Below, piece after piece: positions 8,804 to 34,630 of a stretch of DNA of 41,261 nucleotides; the first letter of the stretch is position 1; the number at the start of each line of letters is the position of its first letter. The notes beneath the pieces were generated by a model. It searched no databases. It had not been told where the DNA came from and was given only the letters and a program-made list of their open reading frames with translations. Source of the stretch: Gemmatimonas sp. (GTDB lineage Bacteria > Gemmatimonadota > Gemmatimonadetes > Gemmatimonadales > Gemmatimonadaceae); assembly GCF_027531815.1 (NCBI RefSeq), contig NZ_JAPZSK010000016.1:1-41261 (forward strand), written 5' to 3'. Position numbers and translations under genes: made by a program.

Positions 8804-8950
8804 GCGGGTCGGGGTCGGGGTCGGGGTCGGGGTCTGCGCAGGAGGCAGGAGGCAGGAGGCAGGAGGCAGGGAGCGGGAGGCGGGGAGCAGGGAGCAGGAG
8901 GCAGGAGGCGGGGATTAGGGGGCAGGAGGCAGGGGGGGGGCGGGGAGCGC
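8804..8950. repeat. G-rich tract: (TCGGGG)n G-quadruplex motif followed by AGGAGGC-type heptamers
   Basis: In the 239-bp gap between sprA and the comEA-like gene, the plus strand holds about five consecutive GGGG runs separated by TC (8809-8843). These are followed by tandem AGGAGGC heptamers (about 8839-8870) and degenerate GGGAGCAGG / GGCAGGAGG units to about 8950. The GGGG-TC array satisfies the usual G-quadruplex pattern. The heptamer part belongs to the same family as the repeats at 19911, 20476, 27580 and 33356. Confidence 0.8.
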
Positions 8951-18175: not shown

Positions 18176-18967
18176 ATGCCGATTGCCTACACGGTGGGTT
18201 TGGCACAGCGCCGAGTGGCGGGACTGCTGCGCGCGTTCGGCAAGCGTGCCTACTTTGCCCGCGACATCGTCCGCGGCCTGCGCGACCCGGGGACGTGGCT
18301 GCCGGAAACGATCCGCCAGATGCGCAACATTGGCGTGGATTCGGTGCCGCTGGCCGTCATCGTGGCCGCCTTCCTTGGTGGGGTGACCGCGTTCCAGACG
18401 CGCTACCAGCTCTTCCCCGGCGTCCAGATGTCGGTGGTGGGGCTCATCGTGCGACAGTCCATCGTGCTCGAACTGGGGCCGCTGCTCACGGCGCTCGTGC
18501 TCACGGGGCGCGTGGGGGCCCGCATGACGGCCGAAATCGGCACGATGCGCGTCACCGAACAGATCGACGCGCTGGAAACGCTCAGCTTTGACCCGGTGGG
18601 CTTTCTGGCCCTGCCGCGGCTGCTGGCGGCGCTGGTGATGCTCCCCGCGCTCACCGTGCTGGCCAACGCGACCGCCATATTCAGTGCGTGGGCCACGCTC
18701 GTCATCGCCACCGACGTGCGCACCGACGACTTCCTCAGTGGCCTCCGTCTGGCGTTCACCTCCTTTCAGGTGATCTACTCGCTCATCAAGGCGTTCTGCT
18801 TCGGGGGGGCCATTGCCTTCGTCTGTTCGTACCAGGGCTATGTCACGGAAGCCGGTGCCGAGGGGGTTGGTCGCTCCACGGCCACGGCGGTCGTGATTGC
18901 GTCCGTGTCCATTCTCGTGCTCGACGCCATTGTCGCGGCCGTTCTGGCTCCGTTCATCCAGGCGTGA
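18176..18967 (+). CDS. mlaE: MlaE/YrbE-type ABC permease
   Basis: 263 residues, a typical MlaE (PF02405) length. Five to six membrane segments are visible. Characteristic motifs are GVTAFQTRYQ, RQSIVLELGPLLTALVLTGRVGARMTAEIGTM (the conserved ELGP...GR.GA...AE.G signature), VTEQIDALETLSFDPVGFLALPR and the late GYVTEAGAEGVGRSTATAVV (G...GA.GVG..T..AV). MlaE is the permease of the MlaFEDB phospholipid transporter, which keeps outer-membrane lipid asymmetric. It follows lptG by 39 bp and precedes mlaD by 19 bp. The cognate ATPase (MlaF) usually sits beside it and is missing here. Confidence 0.92.
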   Translation: MPIAYTVGLAQRRVAGLLRAFGKRAYFARDIVRGLRDPGTWLPETIRQMRNIGVDSVPLAVIVAAFLGGVTAFQTRYQLFPGVQMSVVGLIVRQSIVLELGPLLTALVLTGRVGARMTAEIGTMRVTEQIDALETLSFDPVGFLALPRLLAALVMLPALTVLANATAIFSAWATLVIATDVRTDDFLSGLRLAFTSFQVIYSLIKAFCFGGAIAFVCSYQGYVTEAGAEGVGRSTATAVVIASVSILVLDAIVAAVLAPFIQA

Positions 18968-18986
18968 GCCTGCTTTCCTTCTTTCT

Positions 18987-19874
18987 ATGACTACCAAGCG
19001 ACGCGACGAAGTGCTGGTGGGGCTGCTGCTGATGGTGGCCCTTGCTCTGGCTCTGGGCGGTACGATCTGGATTGCCCGCGGCGGCCTCGCCAAGGGCTAC
19101 ACGATGCACGCCCGCTTCCCGTGGGGCGCGGGGCTCAAGCAGGGGCAGCCGGTGCTGCTCGCCGGCGTGCAGGTGGGCTTCGTGGAGAAGGTGGAGCTCA
19201 TCCCCGACGGTACGCTCGACGTGACGCTGCAGGTGCAGGATCAGTATCGCATCCCGAGCGGCACGACGGCCTCGGTGGAAGCGAACGGCATTTTCGGCGA
19301 TATGCTGATCGCGCTGACGCCGGTGAAGGGGGTGGACGGAAAAATGGCGGTGGGGGATACGATTCCCACCGGCGCGGGCTCGCCGGGCGTGGGGCAGCTG
19401 CTGGAGAAGGGCGATTCCATTGCGCTGAACGTGCGGGCGCTGAGTGACGAGGCGCGGCGGCAGTTCGTGGACAGCGGGGGCGTGCGGGAGGTGCGCCGGA
19501 CGGTGGCCGACCTGACGAAGCTGGTGGCGCAGCTGAGCGCCGTGGCGGCCGAGCAGTCGCGTCAGCTCACGCTGACCCAGTCGCAGCTGCGGAAAACGCT
19601 GTCGTCGGTGGATTCGGCCAAGGTGGATTCGACGCTGGTGAATCTGCGGGCGACGAGCGCGAGCTTCGAACAGCTGTCGCGCGATTTCCGGGAGACGAAC
19701 ACGCAGGTCCAGTCGCTGGTGCAGAAGGTGAACAACGGCCCTGGGACCGCCGGGAAGCTGATGAACGACCCGGCGGTGTACGCGCGGATGGACACGCTGC
19801 TGGCGCGGCTGGATTCGCTGGCGATCGATGTGCGGAAGAATCCGCGGAAGTACATCAACCTCAAGATCTTTTGA
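18987..19874 (+). CDS. mlaD: MlaD-type MCE-domain lipid-binding protein
   Basis: 295 residues from the ATG at 18987 (MTTKRRDEVLVG). The frame is open 90 bp upstream, but that part overlaps mlaE and is not MCE-like. One N-terminal membrane anchor (about 8-28) is followed by a single MCE domain (about 36-115): GAGLKQGQPVLLAGVQVGFVEKVEL and ANGIFGDMLIALTP. A long helical or coiled-coil C-terminal part (about 150-290) contains VNNGPGTAGKLMNDPAVYARMDTLLARLDSL, a tail common in MCE proteins of this type. It works with MlaE in phospholipid movement between the membranes. It is the last gene of the lptF-lptG-mlaE-mlaD operon and is followed 6 bp later by a strong hairpin. Confidence 0.9.
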   Translation: MTTKRRDEVLVGLLLMVALALALGGTIWIARGGLAKGYTMHARFPWGAGLKQGQPVLLAGVQVGFVEKVELIPDGTLDVTLQVQDQYRIPSGTTASVEANGIFGDMLIALTPVKGVDGKMAVGDTIPTGAGSPGVGQLLEKGDSIALNVRALSDEARRQFVDSGGVREVRRTVADLTKLVAQLSAVAAEQSRQLTLTQSQLRKTLSSVDSAKVDSTLVNLRATSASFEQLSRDFRETNTQVQSLVQKVNNGPGTAGKLMNDPAVYARMDTLLARLDSLAIDVRKNPRKYINLKIF

Positions 19875-19880
19875 GGGATT

Positions 19881-19905
19881 GGGCGCGCCAGGTGGCGCGC
19901 CCTTT
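19881..19905 (+). terminator. Intrinsic terminator of the lptFG-mlaED operon
   Basis: GGGCGCGCC, an AGGT loop, and GGCGCGCCC form a perfect 9-bp GC-rich stem followed by TTT, six bases after the mlaD stop. The T-tract is short but the stem is very strong. Confidence 0.75.
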
Positions 19906-19910
19906 GGGTT

Positions 19911-19956
19911 GAAAAGGGAGGGAGCAGGGAGCAGGGGGCGGGGAGCAGGTGACGGG
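19911..19956 (+). repeat. Left inverted repeat of the four-helix-bundle cassette
   Basis: AAAAGGGAGGGAGCAGGGAG, continuing with GCAGGGGGCGGGGAGCAGGTGA. It is purine-rich with a GGGAGCA heptamer register. It starts 6 bp after the T-tract of the mlaD terminator and is the inverted mate of 20476-20513. It also matches the left arm of the element at 27580 (about 27 of 32 bases by eye). Confidence 0.8.
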
Positions 19957-19967
19957 AACGGCAATGG

Positions 19968-19997
19968 AAGGAGGCCTCACGGCCTCCTTTTGTTTTT
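19968..19997 (+). terminator. Intrinsic terminator overlapping the 3' end of the four-helix-bundle gene
   Basis: AAGGAGGCC, a TCAC loop, and GGCCTCCTT form a 9-bp stem followed by TTGTTTTT on the plus strand. The stop codon of the minus-strand gene lies in the loop. It points with the upstream plus-strand operon and would block read-through antisense to the four-helix-bundle gene. Confidence 0.75.
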
Positions 19998-20360
19998 CCG
20001 CTCGAGTAGCTGCCTGCGCTTGTACTCCCGCAGGGCGTAGAGCATGCGGCGGACCTGCTGGAGTTCATCCAGTGTGGCGTTGATGTCGCCGAATCCTCGT
20101 ACGACACGGGCGGCAAGACGGAGGTGGGTTTCGACTTCGAACGCGCTTGCGATTGCCACACTGAGGTGGAAGGGGCATCGCCCTTGGCTCGGGTGGCCCA
20201 CACCTTCCGCAATGTTGGCGGCGATGGAGGAGGCTGCGCGTGCCATCTGCGAGGCCAGACCGGGGGCCTTTCCAGACGGTATCTGCTCTGCGTGCTCGTG
20301 TACACGGGCAGCAAGATCGAGCGCCCTATGGTACACCTGAAGGTTGGCGGGATTCTGCAT
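19977..20360 (-). CDS. Four-helix-bundle protein (23S rRNA intervening-sequence / S23 family)
   Basis: 127 residues, the usual length of this family (TIGR02436-type). It begins MQNPANLQVYHRALDLAARVHEHAEQIP and contains the signature SQMARAASSIAANIAEGVG (family form: L..Q..RA..SI..NIAEG), then a helical second half (FEVETHLRLAARVV, TLDELQQVRRMLYALREYKRRQ). Members are encoded in intervening sequences of 23S rRNA in Leptospira and Coxiella and as free-standing genes. The fold is shared with Avd, the accessory protein of diversity-generating retroelements. The biochemical role of free-standing copies is unknown. Here it is flanked by inverted repeats, and its TGA stop lies in the loop of a terminator hairpin. 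No rRNA or reverse transcriptase is nearby. Confidence 0.88.
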   Translation of the reverse strand: MQNPANLQVYHRALDLAARVHEHAEQIPSGKAPGLASQMARAASSIAANIAEGVGHPSQGRCPFHLSVAIASAFEVETHLRLAARVVRGFGDINATLDELQQVRRMLYALREYKRRQLLERKNKRRP

Positions 20361-20475
20361 GCCGCACGATGTGCGGGCTGCACCGCCATGGTGTCACCAT
20401 TTCATCGCTCCTTGACTCATTGCCACGCCGTAAGCCGTTTCCTCGTCGCTTCTACATGGTCCCCCCTGCGCTCTG

Positions 20476-20513
20476 CCACCTGCTTCCCGCCCCCTGCCCC
20501 CTCCCTTTTGAAC
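20476..20513 (-). repeat. Right inverted repeat of the four-helix-bundle cassette
   Basis: The reverse complement reads CAAAAGGGAGGGGGCAGG, then GGGCGGGAAGCAGGTGG. It is the inverted mate of 19911-19956 with one 7-bp unit fewer. Its outer end touches the T-tract of the next gene's terminator (20511-20548). Confidence 0.8.
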
Positions 20514-20548
20514 AAAGCGGGGGCCCGTCCGCCAGGACGAGCCCCCGC
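20511..20548 (-). terminator. Intrinsic terminator of the minus-strand TonB-dependent receptor
   Basis: On the minus strand, GCGGGGGC (20541-20548) pairs with GCCCCCGC (20517-20524), with an extra inner TCGTCC/GGACGG stem. A TTTGTT tract follows. It lies 23 bp after the receptor stop codon. Confidence 0.8.
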
Positions 20549-20571
20549 CTTCCCCTACACCGCCGCTTTAC

Positions 20572-23500
20572 TCAGAACGCGAAGCGAATGCCCGCCTGAA
20601 TGCGGTAGAAATTCGCCACCGAGTTCGTCACGCGGAACGTCTCGTCGGCGTCGCGCGGATCGAAGGTGTAGACCATCTGCGGACGGCCCTGCGCATCGTT
20701 CTGCGCCCCCACCACGTTGAGCACCGACTGCGACGGGAACGCGCCACGCGTGCGGATCTTGCCCCATCCGGAATTCAGCAGGTTGGGGAGGTTGAACACC
20801 TCGAACTGCAGCTGCACGCGCTGCCCCGCCACGGCGGGCAGCCCCTGACGAATGCTCAGGTCGAGCGTCGACCACCACGGGTTGGCGCAGCTGTTGCGCT
20901 CGAGAATCTGCCCCCGCGCGTTACGCAGGCACGCCTGCCCGCTCACGAAGCGCTCGAACGCCGCCGCCTGCTCGGCGGCCGTGAACGGGCGGCTGGCGCC
21001 GACCGACGGCACGAAGAACGAGGCGTTCTGGAAGAGCATCTCGCCCGCATCCGTGGCGGTGCGCGGCACGTAGATCGGATCGTTGCCGATGTAGCCGTCG
21101 GCGTTCAGGTCACCGCGACCGCCATTGCCCGTGGCGGTCCACACCACCGGCGTGCCGGACTGCAGCGTGTAATTGAACGCGATGTCCGTCGGTGCGGTCT
21201 TCCACGGCGCCGTGTACGTGCCGGTAAGCACGAAGCGATGCGGCATCTGGAAGGCGCTGACGCCAAGCTGCGTGTCGAGCGAGTTGCCCGACAGCACGCG
21301 GCCGTTGATGAAGTTCGAGCGGGCCACCGACGACGTCGCGTCGATCACCGAGCGCGCCTGCTGGTACGTGTACGAGCCGTTGATTTCCCAGCCGTTGTTG
21401 AAGCGCTTGCGCAGCTGGGTCATGAGCAGGGCCGACCAGGCGCCGCTCACGTTGCGTGCATCGAACACGCCGTTTTCCTGACCCACGTACGTGGCGATGC
21501 GACCAGCGGCGCGCGAGGCGACACCCGCCGACGTGCCCGTCGCGGCGATCGTGCCGTACATCGTGCGACCATTGCGATCGGTGGTCGTCGGCGTCGCCTG
21601 GTTCAGGTTGGTGTAGAAGAAGTCGTTCACGCCGTACGTGTACGTACCTTCGATCGTGGCTACCCAGTCGTTGCCGAGGTCGCGATCGTACCCGAGCGTC
21701 GCGCGGGCGACCTGCGGGAAGCGGATGTCATCCGATACCGTATTGACCGTGCCAACGGTGCCGTTCGGGTTGAACGCGGCAATTTCCTGGCCCGACGGGC
21801 AACGGGGCGGCGGCGTGGTGGTCACGTAGTTCCCCGTCGGCGACGGGACCGTGGTGCCACGGTTGGTGATCGGGTCGCACACCAGCTGCGAGAAGTTGTT
21901 GCCGGTGTTCGTGAACGTGTTGGACATGAACACGAACGGCGGCGGGCCCATGAAGACACCCACACCACCGCGCACCTGGTTCTTCTGATCGCCCGTCACG
22001 TCCCAGTTGAAGCCAATGCGCGGCGACGCGTGCAGGCGCATGGACGGGAGCGCGCCGCTGCGGCCGAAGTCGCCCTGCAGACGGGGAAGCGCGAACGGCT
22101 GGTCCTGGAAGTCGACCCAGTCGGCGCGGAAGCCGGCCGTGATGCTCAGGCGATCGGTGACATTCCAGAGATCCTGCGCATACAGCGAGTACGTGGCGGC
22201 GGTGAAGCGGGCGATCGGATCGCCGCCCTGCGGCACCGGAGCACCGACTTCGAAACGGCGGGCTACGCCGCGGTCGAGCGAGTCGAGATTGGCGAAGGTC
22301 CATACGCCGAACGAGTTCTGCGTGAAGGTGTTCTGCGCCTTGTAGAGCTCACCACGCGCGCCAAAGGTGAGCGTGTGACGCCCAACCGGCACCGTCAGGT
22401 CGTTGCGGATCTCGAGGATGTCCTGGAACAGCGAGTTGCCCTGCGACGAGTTTTCGGCGCCCGCCCGCAGGCGCGACACCCCACCGTTCGGGTTCGGCAC
22501 GTTCTCGACGATCACGGCCGGCGCGACTGCCGGGAGGATGCGCTCGAAATCCTGCGTGTTGTAGCCGATCTGCAACTCGTTCGAAATGCCGTTCGTGAAA
22601 TTGCTGAACAGCTGCAGGCCGGTCGAGTTGCTGACATCGTTGCGCTGGAACGCCCAGCTGGTCAGATCGAAGAACGGGTTGGCCGTGGCGTTCGAACGAC
22701 CGAAGTCCTGCGTCTTGTTGTTGTTGTAGTTGTTGCGGATTACCAGGCGGTGCTGGTCGTTGATCTTGAGGTCGAGACGCGCCAGCACGTTGTAGAGCGG
22801 CGTTTCGTTGGCGACCGCGGTTCCCGCGCCACCATTGAAGCCGAAGATGCGCTGCACGCCGCTGTTGAAGCGATCGATCGACGATTGCGAGACCGGCACC
22901 GGCACGGGCGAGTTTGCCGCCTGGCCGAAGAACGGACCGGCAGCGGGCGCCTGTTCGCTGTTCACGTCGGCCGCCACGAAGAAGTGCAGGCGATCCTTCA
23001 CGATCGGGCCACCGAGCGAGCCGGCGTACATGCGACGCTGGAAGCTGGTGTTGCGGGTGAGCGGATCATTCGCCGACATCTGCTGGTCGCGGTACTGGAG
23101 CGAGAGGCTCCCCTGCCAGTCGTTCGTCCCGTTCTTGGTGATGATGTTGGTGAGGCCACCGGTGAAGTTGCCCTGGCGCACGTCGAACGGCGACAGCAGG
23201 ATCTGGAACTCCTTGATGGCTTCGAGCGTGATGCCGCGGCCGTTGGCCTGGGCCCCGAGCTGCTGATCGGAGTTGAGGCCGAAGCGGTCGACCGCCGTGA
23301 GGCCGTCCACCTGAATGTTGTTGTAGCGCGCGTTCTGCCCCGCGAAGCTCGACACGCCACCGCTGCTCGGATTGGTGGCGACGTAGGGCGACGTCTGGAT
23401 GAGGTCGGTGATGTTGCGCGTCAGGTTGGGCAGGCGACGCACCAGCGAGTCGGAGACGCGCGACTGGGCGCCCTGACGCGACGGGTTGAAGTCGGCGACG

Positions 23501-23898
23501 CCGCGGCTGGCGGTGGTGACGAGCTCATTGAGCTGGACCGCCTGGCGCGAGAGCTGGAAATTCGCGCGGACATTCTGCGTGACGCGCACGACCAGATCGT
23601 TGCGCGATTCGGGGCGGTAGCCGATCAGGCGGGCCGAGACGTTGTAGGTGCCCGTTTCGAGTGCCTGCAGTGTGTAGGCGCCCCCCCGTCGCGTCTGGGT
23701 GGCCTGGCGGAAGCCGGTCGCCTGATTGACGGCGGTGATGGTGGCGCCTTCGAGGCCGGTGCCCGATGAGTCGGTCACAATGCCCGAAATGGCACCGGTG
23801 GTGGGGCCCTGAGCGGAAGCGTTGCTCACCGGCACCACGGCAGCACCTACGAACGCCCAGAGAACGATCGCAAGCTGGCGGAAGTGTCGCATGGTCAT
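20572..23898 (-). CDS. Oar-like TonB-dependent receptor with N-terminal carboxypeptidase-regulatory-like domain
   Basis: 1108 residues from the ATG at 23898. A GTG-led extension to 23976 would bury the signal peptide. Signal peptide: MTMRHFRQLAIVLWAFVGAAVVPVSNASA, cleaved before Q. A CnaB/CarboxypepD_reg-like domain (about 33-120: GAISGIVTDSSGTGLEGATI...GGAYTLQALETGTYNVSARLIGY) precedes the plug (about 130-250), which carries FAGQNARYNNIQVDG and FDVRQGNFTGGLTNIITKNGTNDWQGS. A 22-strand-type barrel fills the rest and ends with FYRIQAGIRFAF, a typical outer-membrane C-terminal Phe. The Oar/SusC-like layout points to uptake of a large substrate, but which one is unknown. The plus-strand receptor at 24220 is a divergent paralogue that shares the DVRQGNFTG motif. 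No SusD-like partner is adjacent. Confidence 0.9.
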   Translation of the reverse strand: MTMRHFRQLAIVLWAFVGAAVVPVSNASAQGPTTGAISGIVTDSSGTGLEGATITAVNQATGFRQATQTRRGGAYTLQALETGTYNVSARLIGYRPESRNDLVVRVTQNVRANFQLSRQAVQLNELVTTASRGVADFNPSRQGAQSRVSDSLVRRLPNLTRNITDLIQTSPYVATNPSSGGVSSFAGQNARYNNIQVDGLTAVDRFGLNSDQQLGAQANGRGITLEAIKEFQILLSPFDVRQGNFTGGLTNIITKNGTNDWQGSLSLQYRDQQMSANDPLTRNTSFQRRMYAGSLGGPIVKDRLHFFVAADVNSEQAPAAGPFFGQAANSPVPVPVSQSSIDRFNSGVQRIFGFNGGAGTAVANETPLYNVLARLDLKINDQHRLVIRNNYNNNKTQDFGRSNATANPFFDLTSWAFQRNDVSNSTGLQLFSNFTNGISNELQIGYNTQDFERILPAVAPAVIVENVPNPNGGVSRLRAGAENSSQGNSLFQDILEIRNDLTVPVGRHTLTFGARGELYKAQNTFTQNSFGVWTFANLDSLDRGVARRFEVGAPVPQGGDPIARFTAATYSLYAQDLWNVTDRLSITAGFRADWVDFQDQPFALPRLQGDFGRSGALPSMRLHASPRIGFNWDVTGDQKNQVRGGVGVFMGPPPFVFMSNTFTNTGNNFSQLVCDPITNRGTTVPSPTGNYVTTTPPPRCPSGQEIAAFNPNGTVGTVNTVSDDIRFPQVARATLGYDRDLGNDWVATIEGTYTYGVNDFFYTNLNQATPTTTDRNGRTMYGTIAATGTSAGVASRAAGRIATYVGQENGVFDARNVSGAWSALLMTQLRKRFNNGWEINGSYTYQQARSVIDATSSVARSNFINGRVLSGNSLDTQLGVSAFQMPHRFVLTGTYTAPWKTAPTDIAFNYTLQSGTPVVWTATGNGGRGDLNADGYIGNDPIYVPRTATDAGEMLFQNASFFVPSVGASRPFTAAEQAAAFERFVSGQACLRNARGQILERNSCANPWWSTLDLSIRQGLPAVAGQRVQLQFEVFNLPNLLNSGWGKIRTRGAFPSQSVLNVVGAQNDAQGRPQMVYTFDPRDADETFRVTNSVANFYRIQAGIRFAF

Positions 23899-24219
23899 GT
23901 GGGAGGAGTCGAGAAGAACCGGATGTTCGGCCGGGCGGGAACACCCCGGCAACAGTCGGCACGGCAGAGGGGTCACAGGTGCGCCGAAACGAACCGCGCT
24001 CGGCCTCCGTGGCGAACGGCTTTCCGGTGCGGAAGGTTCTCACGCGAGACTCCACAGTCTGGAATGGCAACAGCTCCGTAACGGCCCTCTGGTCCCGTCA
24101 CCCTGCGCCTCGGCCCCGGACCGGTTTCGTTACATTCCGTGGGCTGGTGTGCGTTCCGTACAAGCGGGGTGTCTCCCCGGACCACCGGCCCCATCCCCTC
24201 ACGATCTCAGGAGCATTTC
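23899..24219. other. Divergent intergenic region between two TonB-dependent receptors
   Basis: 321 bp with no protein-like open frame. It must hold both receptor promoters and any shared regulator site. Apart from the ribosome binding site before 24220 I see no convincing -35/-10 pair, operator palindrome or riboswitch fold. Confidence 0.5.
24209..24213 (+). promoter_or_regulatory. Ribosome binding site fixing the start of the plus-strand receptor
   Basis: AGGAG six bases before the ATG at 24220. It decides this start over an in-frame start at 24139 whose extra residues are not signal-peptide-like. Confidence 0.75.
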
Positions 24220-27544: not shown

Positions 27545-27577
27545 GGGGAGCCGGCAATGCCGGCTCCCCTTTTGTTT
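27545..27577 (+). terminator. Intrinsic terminator of the plus-strand receptor gene
   Basis: GGGGAGCCGGC, an AAT loop, and GCCGGCTCCCC form a perfect 11-bp stem followed by TTTTGTTT. This is the clearest terminator in the window. Confidence 0.9.
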
Positions 27578-27579
27578 AC

Positions 27580-27675
27580 AAGGGAGGAAGCAGGGGGCAG
27601 GAAGCAGGTTGCAGGGGGCAGGTGACGACCTGCGTCCCGCTTCCTTGCCCCCTGCTGCCTGCTCCCTGCCCTGTC
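27580..27675. repeat. ORF-less inverted-repeat element related to the four-helix-bundle cassette
   Basis: The left arm begins AAGGGAGGAAGCAGGGGGCA (27580 onward) and runs to about 27627. The right arm, on the opposite strand, contains GGGAGCAGGCAGCAGGGGGC. The arms resemble those at 19911 and 20476 and nearly abut, separated only by a few bases around GTGACGACC. The element lies 3 bp after the receptor terminator. It looks like a miniature derivative that has lost the internal gene. The rest of the 200-bp gap (to 27725) shows nothing else. Confidence 0.7.
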
Positions 27676-27725
27676 ATCCAGGGGCGCGCCCCCGGCGCGC
27701 CCGCTCCTCTTCAGCGCGCCCGCGC

Positions 27726-29427: not shown

Positions 29428-30369
29428 ATGGCAACCGGCATCGCCCCTGTGAACGGGAACCCGCCAGTCGGGGCTCCTCCGAGCCCTGTGGCCGACACCC
29501 CGCTGTCGCGCGACCTCGTCGCGCTGACCAAGCCCCGCATCATCTCGCTGTTGCTGGTCACGACCGCCGCGCCCATGTACGCCGCCGGCAGCCCGAGCCT
29601 CTGGACGGTGCTGCTGGTGATGGTGGGCGGGTATCTCATGGCCGGGGGCGCGAACGCGGTGAACATGTACATCGACCGCGACATCGACGACGTCATGGCG
29701 CGCACGCGGCTGCGCCCCATCCCGAGCGGCCGCATGTCCCCCACGCAGGTGCTGGCGTTCGGCGTGTTCTGCGCCACGCTGGCCACGTGGATGCTGGCGC
29801 ACTTCGTGAATGTGCTCACGGCGGGGCTCGCGCTGGCGGGCTTCTACTTCTACGTGTTCATCTACACGCGCATCCTCAAGCGCACGAGCCCACAGAACAT
29901 CGTGATTGGCGGCGCCGCCGGGGCCTTCCCGCCCCTGGTGGGATGGGCGGCGGTCACGGGCACGCTCGACGTGACGGCGCTGTGCCTGTTCCTCATCGTG
30001 TTCTACTGGACCCCGCCGCACTTCTGGGCGCTGGCGCTGCTCAAGCAGGTGGACTACGGCCGCGCCAAGGTGCCCATGGCGCCGCTGGTGTGGGGCGAGC
30101 GCGAGACGATGCACCAGATGGTGTGGTACACCGTGATTCTGCTGGCGCTCACGGTGCTGCCGGTGCTGTACGGGGCCTTCGGCCTGCTCTACCTCGCAAG
30201 CGCTCTCGTGCTGGGCGGCCTGCTCATGTGGGGGGTGCTCAAGGTGCTCTGGGCCGCGCAGCAGGGGCAGCCGTGGACGGGGCCGGCGTGGTGGGTGTAC
30301 AAGTACTCGCTGCTGTATCTCGCGCTGCTGTTCGTGGCGATGGGGATAGACCGGGCGCTCGCCCGGTAG
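29428..30369 (+). CDS. ctaB: Protoheme IX farnesyltransferase (haem O synthase, UbiA family)
   Basis: 313 residues from the ATG at 29428, one base after the upstream gene's stop. Longer starts overlap that gene. The protein transfers a farnesyl group to haem b to make haem O, needed for haem-copper oxidases. It shows the UbiA first Asp motif NMYIDRDIDDVMARTRLRPIPSG (N-x3-D-x3-D), the CtaB/CyoE-specific YTRILKRTSPQNIVIGGAAGAFPPLVGW, and WTPPHFWALAL followed by DYGRAKVPM (second Asp region). About 8-9 membrane helices are visible. Length and motifs are normal. The cytochrome oxidase genes often found beside ctaB are not in the window. Confidence 0.95.
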   Translation: MATGIAPVNGNPPVGAPPSPVADTPLSRDLVALTKPRIISLLLVTTAAPMYAAGSPSLWTVLLVMVGGYLMAGGANAVNMYIDRDIDDVMARTRLRPIPSGRMSPTQVLAFGVFCATLATWMLAHFVNVLTAGLALAGFYFYVFIYTRILKRTSPQNIVIGGAAGAFPPLVGWAAVTGTLDVTALCLFLIVFYWTPPHFWALALLKQVDYGRAKVPMAPLVWGERETMHQMVWYTVILLALTVLPVLYGAFGLLYLASALVLGGLLMWGVLKVLWAAQQGQPWTGPAWWVYKYSLLYLALLFVAMGIDRALAR

Positions 30370-30380
30370 CGGGTTTAACG

Positions 30381-30719
30381 ACGCGGGGGGGACAACGCGC
30401 GATCGAGGACGCGTTGGCGGGGACGCGTTGGAAAGGACGCGTTGGCGTCAACGCGTTGGCGGGGACGCAGACACCGACGCGGACACCGACGCGGACACCA
30501 ACGCAGGCACCAACGCAGGCACCAACGCAGGGCGACCGAGGCCGAAGGCCAGGTCGCCCTCGTCGTTGCCCCTCGTCGTTGCCCGCGTTGGTGCCCGTCG
30601 TGGTTGCCGGCGTGCCCGCCTGCGCCTCTCCGCGTTGGTGCCAACGCGTCCGTGCGAATGCGTCGTCGCCAACGCGTGTTCGCCAACGCGTCGTCGATCG
30701 CGCGTTGTCCCCCTCGCGT
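30381..30719. repeat. Giant imperfect palindrome rich in ACGCGTTGG repeats
   Basis: The 403-bp gap between ctaB and the ABC exporter is almost wholly one inverted repeat. The outer 29 bases, 30391-30419 and the complement of 30681-30709, match at 28 positions. Inner parts contain three CACCAACGCAGG-type units and GACACCGACGCG units on the left, with their decayed complements on the right. The apex at about 30545 is GGGCGACC...GGTCGCCC enclosing GGCC-GAA-GGCC. ACGCGT occurs seven times (30409, 30423, 30437, 30451, 30644, 30672, 30686). The open frames across it are repetitive and not protein-like. I do not know this element. It could form a cruciform in DNA or a hairpin of about 165 bp per arm in RNA, and may end the ctaB transcript. 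Confidence 0.85.
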
Positions 30720-30772
30720 AGTTCGCCCGCCCCGGCGGTAGACAGCCGTCTCTCCGTCCGCAATCTTGTGGC

Positions 30773-32519: not shown

Positions 32520-33455
32520 CTAGTACGCGAGCTGCAGGCGCGTTTGCACGCCGCCGTCCACGCGCACGCGCGCGTCGCGCGTCCCGAGACGCTCGTGCCA
32601 CACATGCAGCGTGTAGCGGCCTGGCGGCACGCCGTCGAAGCGAAAATTGCCGTCGGCCGCGGTCACGGCCACGAACGGATGCGGCGCCACCACGAGCCAG
32701 GCGCGCACCCACGGATGCATATCGTCGCTCACGCGCACAAGGCCGGGGGCCGCACTGGCCTGTGCGGTGGGCACCACCTGCCCGGCATCGGAGAGCAGCA
32801 GCGTGGCGCGTGGCGCGGCCTCGCCGTTGGCGGTGAACTGCAGACGGGACATCATGGCGTCGCGGCTGTTCACGAGCACCGTGCTGCCGGCGGCTATGCG
32901 CTGCACCCGCGGCGACAGCCGGCAGCCGTCGAGCGTGAGGCGCACGCGCCGCGGGGCGTCGTCGCGCGGGCCGCTGTCAACGCCGCTCAGCCACACCACC
33001 GCATCGCCCACCCCCCCCTCGCGGCTCAGCACGAGCGTTTCGCTGAAGGGGCGGCACACGGCGAGATCGTGCGTGGGGGTAATGCTCGTGTCCTTGGGCG
33101 AGCCGCCGCTGATCGTGCCGAGCACCACACCGGGCGTGGGAGCGGCCTGCACGCGATAGTCGGTCCCGGCCGGCCCCCCCGCGGCGCGGGCGAGCGACCC
33201 GCCTCGGGGCACGTCACTGGGCCCGCTCGCCGCATTCGGCCCCGTACCGATGGTGGCCTCGACCTCCGCGATGCGCGTGCGCGCCTCGGGTTGCTCCGCG
33301 CAGCCGATCGCCAGCAGCAGGAACAGCCCGGTGATCGACCCGGTGATCGACCGGCGCCTGCGTCCTGTCTCCTGCGCCCTGCGACCTGCCCGCGTCTTCG
33401 CCCGACGGGCAGCCGGGGGCAGGAGGCGGGACGCAGGACGCCGCAAACGGGTCAA
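32520..33455 (-). CDS. Lipoprotein with degenerate cupredoxin-like and carboxypeptidase-regulatory-like domains
   Basis: 311 residues. The TTG at 33455 overlaps the upstream M24 peptidase stop (TTGA), with AGGAG 11 bases before, so translational coupling supports this start. After a long basic N-terminus (1-36), ITGLFLLLAIGC is a hydrophobic segment with a probable lipobox Cys. The middle resembles cupredoxin-like proteins of the 'methylamine utilisation' type (GDAVVWLSGV, RVRLTLDGCRLSPRVQRIAAGSTVLVNSRD). The C-terminal part is CnaB-like (AADGNFRFDGVPPGRYTLHVWHERLG). Where relatives have C-D-I-H-P-x-M-x-A-Y, this protein has SDDMHPWVRAWLVV: the His stays, but the Cys and Met copper ligands are gone. 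Residues 1-33 are encoded by an inverted-repeat element. Function is unknown. Confidence 0.75.
   Translation of the reverse strand: MTRLRRPASRLLPPAARRAKTRAGRRAQETGRRRRSITGSITGLFLLLAIGCAEQPEARTRIAEVEATIGTGPNAASGPSDVPRGGSLARAAGGPAGTDYRVQAAPTPGVVLGTISGGSPKDTSITPTHDLAVCRPFSETLVLSREGGVGDAVVWLSGVDSGPRDDAPRRVRLTLDGCRLSPRVQRIAAGSTVLVNSRDAMMSRLQFTANGEAAPRATLLLSDAGQVVPTAQASAAPGLVRVSDDMHPWVRAWLVVAPHPFVAVTAADGNFRFDGVPPGRYTLHVWHERLGTRDARVRVDGGVQTRLQLAY
33356..33442. repeat. Inverted CCTG/CAGG repeat overlapping the 5' end of the lipoprotein gene
   Basis: CGTCCTGTCTCCTGCGCCCT (33361 onward) and, in inverse, GGGGGCAGGAGGCGGGACGC (to 33435) flanking a GCCCG...CGGGC centre. It has the same CAGGAGGC vocabulary as the elements at 8839, 19911 and 27580, but the arms face the other way round and are more diverged. 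It lies inside the coding sequence of the lipoprotein N-terminus. Confidence 0.6.
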
Positions 33456-34630
33456 ACGACCCAGAGCTCCTGCTGAATCTCGCCCGGCGTGACGAGCAGC
33501 GCGTCGTCGCCCACGTAGGCGTTGACCTCGCTGCGCACGCCGAACTCGCCCGTGAGGTAGACGCCCGGTTCGATGGAGAAGCCAACGCCGGGAATGAGTA
33601 TGCGATCGTCGCGCGACTCGAGGTTGTCGATCTGCGGGCCGCTGCCATGCAGCTCGCGTGCATCGATGCTGTGGCCGGTACGGTGCCAGAAATCCTTGCC
33701 GAAGCCGCGCGCCGTGATCACCGCGCGCGCCGCATCGTCGGCCTCACCGCCACGCACGACCTCCCCCGCGGCAATGCGGTCCCGCAGCAGGGTGAGCGCC
33801 GCATCGCGCGCATCGCGCACCGCTTCCCACACCTCGACCACCCGCGTGGCCGGCGTGCCGAGCGACGCCATCCACGTCTGGTCGGCATAGATGCCGTTGG
33901 GCTCCTTTGCCCAGAGATCGACGAGCAGCACGTCACCCTGCTGCACGAGGCGCGGCCGGGACGCCGAGGGGACGTAGTGGGGATTGGCCGCATTCTCGGA
34001 AGCCGCAACATCGGGGCCGTGGTCGGTGAGGAGCCCGGCCCGCCCGAAGGCATCGAGGATGCGCTGCTGCAGCTCGTGTTCGGCCGCCGGGGTGCCCGCC
34101 GCCACACACGCGCCCGCATGGGCAATCGTGTCGCGCGCGATGCGGGCAATGTGCTCGGCCGCCCGCTGGTGCGACGCCAGCTGCGCCGGCGTCCAGGTGG
34201 CGTAGACCTGCGACACCAGCTCCGCGCTGCTCACCACCGTGGCTCCACTCGCGCGCACCATTTCGAGCACGCCGGCGGGGATGCGGTCGAGGTAGGGAAT
34301 GGCATCACCCGGCGAGTATTCCATGGCGACGCGCTTGCCCTGCACCAACGTGGCCAGCTCACTCTCGAGGGCGCGCCAGCCGCTGTACACGCGCAGCGGC
34401 CAGCCCGTGGGCCACTGCTTCCACGGCCCCGGTTCGATGGCGTGCTGAATGCCAACGGGGAGTCCGGTCCGCGGAATGAACGCGAACACGCGGCGTGAAC
34501 ACAGGCCGCCGAAGCCCAGCAACCCCGCGGCGATGGCGTTGGTGCCGCGGAAGTCGTACAGCAGCCAGCCGTCGAGGTCCGCGTCGGTCAGCAGCTGCTG
34601 CAGGCGCGGCAGCAACTCAGGGCTAAGCAT
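33452..34630 (-). CDS. M24-family metallopeptidase (aminopeptidase P / Xaa-Pro peptidase-like)
   Basis: 392 residues: a creatinase-like N-terminal domain (about 1-145) and a pita-bread catalytic domain. All five dinuclear metal ligands of the family can be placed: D238 (LVDLWAKE), D250 (YADQTW), H320 (HRTGHSID), E354 (FSIEPGVY) and E368 (VRSEVNAY). The enzyme is therefore probably active and releases an N-terminal residue next to proline or a related bond. It is cytoplasmic, with no signal peptide. The gene follows the V4R-like gene by 24 bp and overlaps the lipoprotein gene by 4 bp, giving a three-gene minus-strand operon. The exact substrate cannot be told from the sequence. Confidence 0.92.
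   Translation of the reverse strand: MLSPELLPRLQQLLTDADLDGWLLYDFRGTNAIAAGLLGFGGLCSRRVFAFIPRTGLPVGIQHAIEPGPWKQWPTGWPLRVYSGWRALESELATLVQGKRVAMEYSPGDAIPYLDRIPAGVLEMVRASGATVVSSAELVSQVYATWTPAQLASHQRAAEHIARIARDTIAHAGACVAAGTPAAEHELQQRILDAFGRAGLLTDHGPDVAASENAANPHYVPSASRPRLVQQGDVLLVDLWAKEPNGIYADQTWMASLGTPATRVVEVWEAVRDARDAALTLLRDRIAAGEVVRGGEADDAARAVITARGFGKDFWHRTGHSIDARELHGSGPQIDNLESRDDRILIPGVGFSIEPGVYLTGEFGVRSEVNAYVGDDALLVTPGEIQQELWVV

Follow-up and report, generated by a model that had tools for sequence, protein, structure and literature searches.

The closest described relatives of the element analyzed here are the intervening sequences (IVSs) of the 23S rRNA genes of Leptospira and Coxiella, which are ∼430 to 600 bp long and carry an IVP/S23 open reading frame between complementary ends. 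A comparable layout is known from the RAYT/REP-REPIN system (TnpA_REP), in which an intergenic single gene lies between inverted hairpin repeats and many gene-less hairpins are dispersed, the REPINs being mobilized in trans by RAYT transposases. In protein fold, the comparison extends to Avd, the nucleic-acid-binding oligomer of diversity-generating retroelements (DGRs). In the Coxiella IVS, tandem heptamers (GACAGAT) adjoin the S23p open reading frame, and mobility has only been hypothesized (PMC4990558). Intergenic tandem 7-bp units are also found as orphan heptamer repeats, including GGGAATC of Xanthomonas, GGGGATT of Nostoc, and the STRRs of cyanobacteria; many of those in Xanthomonas occur as inverted pairs (PMC4692102), and heptamers, for whose function there is said to be no clue, are reported to outnumber all other periodic repeats in intergenic regions (PMC6344855). 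Neither of these two studies linked the repeats to IVP genes, and the open-access literature yielded no report that connects IVP genes with heptads, or with inverted repeats, at sites other than rRNA.

An IVP gene between heptad arrays in Gemmatimonas

The window, i.e., the whole 41,261-nt stretch of Gemmatimonas sp. DNA that was analyzed, contains an IVP/S23 gene of 127 aa (19977 to 20360, reverse strand) in the gap between mlaD (MCE family; 18897 to 19874, forward strand) and a gene for a TonB-dependent outer membrane receptor (20572 to 23976, reverse strand), both identified by profile match and both converging with their 3' ends on the cassette. The protein matched PF05635 (23S_rRNA_IVP; 73.3 bits versus a Pfam cutoff of 33.8) and TIGR02436 (78.2 bits versus a cutoff of 24), and its AF2 model (pLDDT 94.2) predicted four helices arranged as a four-helix bundle. 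The best PDB matches of this model were 2gsc and 2rld, each with five chains per entry, while more remote matches to DGR Avd (4dwl and 8ub7) suggested that the two proteins share the same fold. Unlike in DGRs, no reverse transcriptase or template/variable repeat adjoined the gene among its neighbors, which were identified by profile search as LptG, MlaE, MlaD, and TonB receptors. No Rfam family was matched in the window; thus, the site is not an rRNA, which bears out the placement of this unit in a protein-coding intergenic gap by the preliminary description of this DNA and distinguishes it from the 23S rRNA IVSs. A phage or defense origin was considered and rejected, with no match to PHROGs, to PADLOC, or in phage records.

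Two inverted repeats surround the gene, the first at 19897 to 19948/20473 to 20524 and the second at 19926 to 19951/20477 to 20502 (26 nt, 92%). Combining the repeat search and the arm alignment, the left arm (19912 to 19951, G-rich on the forward strand) and the inverted right arm (20477 to 20513, reverse strand) were delimited as arrays of GGGAGCA/GGGGGCA heptads, the right one having one unit fewer. The preliminary description had read the arms as inverted near copies with a 7-bp unit skipped, and that unit corresponds to exactly one heptad. With gaps allowed, the arm alignment scored 27.5, compared with a median of 12, a 99th percentile of 19, and a maximum of 22 at 402 shifted positions in the window; a chance origin of the arms was ruled out by this null and by a similar one for the cross-phylum set described below. 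In addition, three terminator-like hairpins were read from the sequence: a short one with a T-run over the IVP stop codon (19970 to 19997, forward strand) and two outside the cassette, 3' of mlaD (19881 to 19906, forward strand) and 3' of the receptor gene (20514 to 20551, reverse strand).

The same genome (G000) encodes nine IVP proteins, and eight of the nine genes lie between inverted arms of 70 to 250 bp (scores of 27 to 154), each arm pair having its own sequence, with L001 being the one gene lacking arms. The GGGAGCA-type pattern had 71 matches genome-wide versus 0 for the reversed control, and 0 to 32 matches in each of 29 congeners. Moreover, five of the eight armed loci had gene-less hairpins related to their arms within a 241-kb sample of this genome, which was chosen with GGGAGCA sites already known inside and may therefore overstate the number of hairpins; no solo hairpins matching these arms occurred in samples of 200 kb from each of five other genomes, taken blind. 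Strong hairpins (score of ≥40) numbered 8, 7, and 6 in samples of three IVP-bearing genomes versus 0, 2, and 1 in samples of three IVP-less ones, the same nonblind sample of G000 being used in this comparison. Within the window, the hairpin scan revealed a gene-less GGGAGCA-type heptad hairpin (27570 to 27680), a putative solo derivative that is situated directly 3' of a terminator like the IVP cassette, and a 412-bp gene-less hairpin (30344 to 30755; arm score of 123.5) whose arms matched by blastn the arms of L006, a different IVP gene in this genome (G000:C4:394516; 77%, E value of 5e-33). Thus, unlike the orphan heptamers in the literature, the arrays here bracket a gene and also occur without one. 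The scan also retrieved a GGAGGCA/GGGAGCA heptad array in a single orientation, preceded by a GGGGTC tandem (8835 to 8945, forward strand). At 33314 to 33475, GCAGGAG-type heptads form a further inverted repeat that encloses a short loop and may be one more solo hairpin.

Occupied and empty sites in congeners and Mesorhizobium

Following the comparison proposed in the preliminary description, the mlaD/receptor gap was found to hold an IVP gene in 11 congeners and to lack it in several others. All complete occupied sites have arms, those of G025 being weak, and one congener (G021) carries the gene in the opposite orientation. The arm sequences are species specific, yet the left and right arms match inside each species, with a mean complementarity of 49.3 within species versus 23.8 between species (permutation P ≤ 5e-5). 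In the nearest relative (G005, 93% identical), the gap contains only gene-less hairpins; it spans two contigs with an overlap of exactly 141 bp, with a residual chance of a collapsed tandem repeat. Other hairpin-like sequences occupy the gap in G006, G017, G004, and G013. Considering that the gene is common to 11 congeners at this site, the window copy is old, and its inheritance within the genus was mostly vertical. The preliminary description had set against mobility a state in which gene and arms are conserved at this locus in all relatives, with no other copies and with arms that do not co-vary; of this, the retention of the gene in 11 congeners was observed, whereas the gene is absent from others, other copies exist, and the arms do co-vary.

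Around 23 of the 29 IVP genes of the congeners have inverted arms. In G006, two near-identical IVP genes (L091 and L092) occupy unrelated loci, each within arrayed palindromic units of ∼120 bp, with 93% identity over 1.85 kb, and G017 has a single unit at one of these two loci. At a third locus, both flanks are colinear between G006 and G017, and the 845-bp cassette is inverted. The C4 copy of G006 was rejected as a clean insertion, since the adjoining ABC transporter gene also carries deletions.

A single junction between an acyl-CoA dehydrogenase gene and a dehydrogenase gene was compared across 146 Mesorhizobium genomes, as raw genome counts ignoring kinship. The cassette was present in ∼33 of the 146, while in most of the other genomes the junction measured ∼25 bp (∼21 to 28 bp) from the stop codon to the next start; several genomes had decayed remnants, and two had gene-less hairpins of other heptads. 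The copies sit within codirectional gene runs, and in several cases the inserted cassette provides the stop codon with which the upstream gene ends. A tree of the flanks, too weak for a count of events, suggests interleaved gains and losses. No target site duplication was visible at the Mesorhizobium or the G006/G017 sites, where the gaps are strongly diverged. Among 30 Mesorhizobium IVP orthologues (median dS of 0.67), GGCAGTA was by far the commonest unit, with copy numbers from 1 to 15, and its persistence over such divergence suggests a constraint on the heptad sequence. The heptad numbers of the two arms were uncorrelated (rho = 0.19), indicating that no exact length of the stem is required. 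Furthermore, genomes with a GGCAGTA-armed gene had more GGCAGTA arrays elsewhere (median of 12.5 versus 2.5; P = 6e-4, kinship ignored), and some IVP-less Mesorhizobium genomes also have such arrays. At the same junction, one genome (G272, locus L349) has arms of about ten copies of an 8-bp unit, GGGCAGTA, and a truncated IVP gene.

Heptad arms across the IVP family

Inverted arms above the 99% level of the null (n = 1,811) were detected around 67 of 99 IVP genes from at least 12 phyla. The flanks of IVP genes matched themselves at lag 7 (0.434 versus 0.254 in control flanks) and lag 14 (0.395 versus 0.256), and the other lags tested gave no comparable rise except a smaller one at lag 21. Clear tandem heptads were present at 55 of 75 IVP loci versus 4 of 205 controls, with zero cases at lag 5 and lag 10; about a quarter of the IVP loci had no clear heptads. 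The heptad varies by element (GGTGAAT, GGCAGTA, GGGAATA, AGCTACT, GTGACAA, and GGGGCGA, among others), and the upstream arm was purine-rich on the IVP strand at 31 of 37 loci. No rRNA occurred at 20 other IVP loci checked, where only tRNAs were found. The IVP itself is under strong purifying selection (dN/dS of 0.05 to 0.08). To judge from these comparisons, inverted 7-bp arrays appear to be the rule for the whole protein family, a generality that goes beyond the preliminary description. Window-type elements differ from the 23S rRNA IVSs in that each has its own heptad, with dispersed gene-less derivatives and a complementarity kept at the DNA level (see below).

Mobility and rival explanations

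We consider that the window unit is probably a small IVS-like mobile DNA cassette, consisting of an IVP gene between inverted 7-bp arrays, with MITE-like derivatives. The mobility of such cassettes is well supported by sequence comparison, in which neither a transposition event nor an excised intermediate was observed. Copies elsewhere, co-varying arms, presence or absence at homologous sites, and the gene-less hairpins in place of the gene in the nearest relative all argue for the self-contained IVS-like cassette of the preliminary description, and the cassettes occupy intergenic gaps, typically directly 3' of a stop codon. In the proposed mechanism, the IVP, from a family with five-chain crystal entries and a fold related to that of Avd, would bind its cognate heptad array, each subunit contacting one 7-nt unit; a ring built in this way would account for a period that is fixed while the sequence is free. 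The gene-less hairpins would be nonautonomous copies mobilized in trans. Strand transfer would fall to another enzyme, either a Y1/HUH transposase or the host replication and recombination machinery, because the IVP has no recognized nuclease motif.

The preliminary description left it open whether the cassette moves as DNA or RNA and suggested that the protein might bind the folded arms. As in the 23S rRNA IVSs, the arms could pair in the transcript, with RNase III cutting the stem, the IVP binding RNA, and the hairpin being selected as RNA. Such an RNA element would be in keeping with the shared protein family, with the heptameric repeats inside the RNase III-cut stem of the Coxiella IVS (PMC4990558), with the location of the Mesorhizobium copies in codirectional gene runs, and with the −66 kcal/mol RNA duplex that the arms could form. 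A hairpin selected as RNA should, however, show more G·U than A·C mismatches, and on the IVP-sense strand of 99 loci the two were equally frequent (154 G·U versus 152 A·C), whereas tRNA acceptor stems, counted in a similar way as a control, gave 22 versus 0. Thus, complementarity is held at the DNA level, via a DNA function or recombination between the arms. Considering also the uncorrelated heptad numbers of the two arms, an RNA element is improbable, and of the earlier reading the IVS-like cassette stands, while folded RNA as the conserved entity is not supported. Complementarity at the DNA level would equally be expected if the IVP were an ordinary cellular gene with no mobility, beside which slippage and template switching grow and homogenize the arms (quasipalindrome correction); the freely varying copy number of the heptads (1 to 15), the one site that keeps the gene in 11 congeners, and the strong purifying selection would all fit. 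Yet this reading leaves unexplained the dispersed solo hairpins that match particular IVP arms, the near-identical G006 copies at two unrelated sites, the Mesorhizobium sites that are empty or have hairpins of other heptads, and the occurrence of heptads at 55 of 75 IVP loci versus 2% of controls, and we regard it as decidedly improbable.

A different enzyme may also move the arms. The only Y1_Tnp gene of the genome (L090, G000:C6:700538, reverse strand), which is RAYT-like and located outside the cassette, in turn lies between two inverted arrays whose 12-bp unit is GAGCTGGGGTCG (arm score of 41). For this reason, a Y1 enzyme that acts on arms of this kind must be taken seriously, as a rival of the IVP or as its partner. 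In its full form, in which a RAYT-like Y1 (HUH) transposase moves the arms as single-stranded DNA hairpins and the IVP gene is mere cargo, the explanation would accommodate the DNA-level complementarity as well as the combination of gene, inverted arms, and dispersed gene-less hairpins, which is the RAYT/REPIN layout. The cassettes depart from that system in two respects, with a four-helix-bundle protein that has no HUH/Y1 motif and with tandem heptads in place of single REP hairpins. Moreover, a single Y1 gene faces at least eight arm families, which its own arms do not resemble, and the recurrence of heptads at the IVP genes of so many phyla would be left unexplained; the cargo reading is therefore doubtful.

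Returning to the mobile cassette, its recurrent layout of IVP gene and heptad arms in at least a dozen phyla suggests a widespread and barely noticed class of small mobile elements, very small units (∼450 to 600 bp) with a protein of ∼125 aa and no known nuclease. As a broader and more tentative possibility, IVP elements may form a distinct, bacteria-wide type of mobile DNA, in which an IVP ring reads its own heptads at 7 nt per subunit and directs the movement of cassettes and hairpins; the 23S rRNA IVSs would then be the special case of insertion into rRNA, and the orphan heptamers would mostly be debris of such elements. In this way, IVP elements may explain many of the scattered 7-base repeats of bacterial genomes, and heptad repeats become traceable to a gene family. 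An IVP gene with inverted heptads thus offers a single testable hypothesis for three puzzles, namely, the unexplained S23/IVP family, the spread of rRNA intervening sequences, and the abundance of intergenic 7-bp tandem repeats.

Inspection also covered six plasmid-borne IVP genes of cyanobacteria, most of which had visible heptad arrays beside them. Identical IVP hits on two Calothrix plasmids were considered as a recent transposition, which was ruled out by a 3.6-kb block common to both. On the Pseudanabaena plasmid pPg_01 (L358), the gene order is cas6-IVP-cas4, flanked on either side by AAAGCTA/AAAGCCA heptad arrays that are mainly direct repeats; a 23S rRNA IVP has been listed among CRISPR-associated proteins in a CRISPR survey (PMC10910872).
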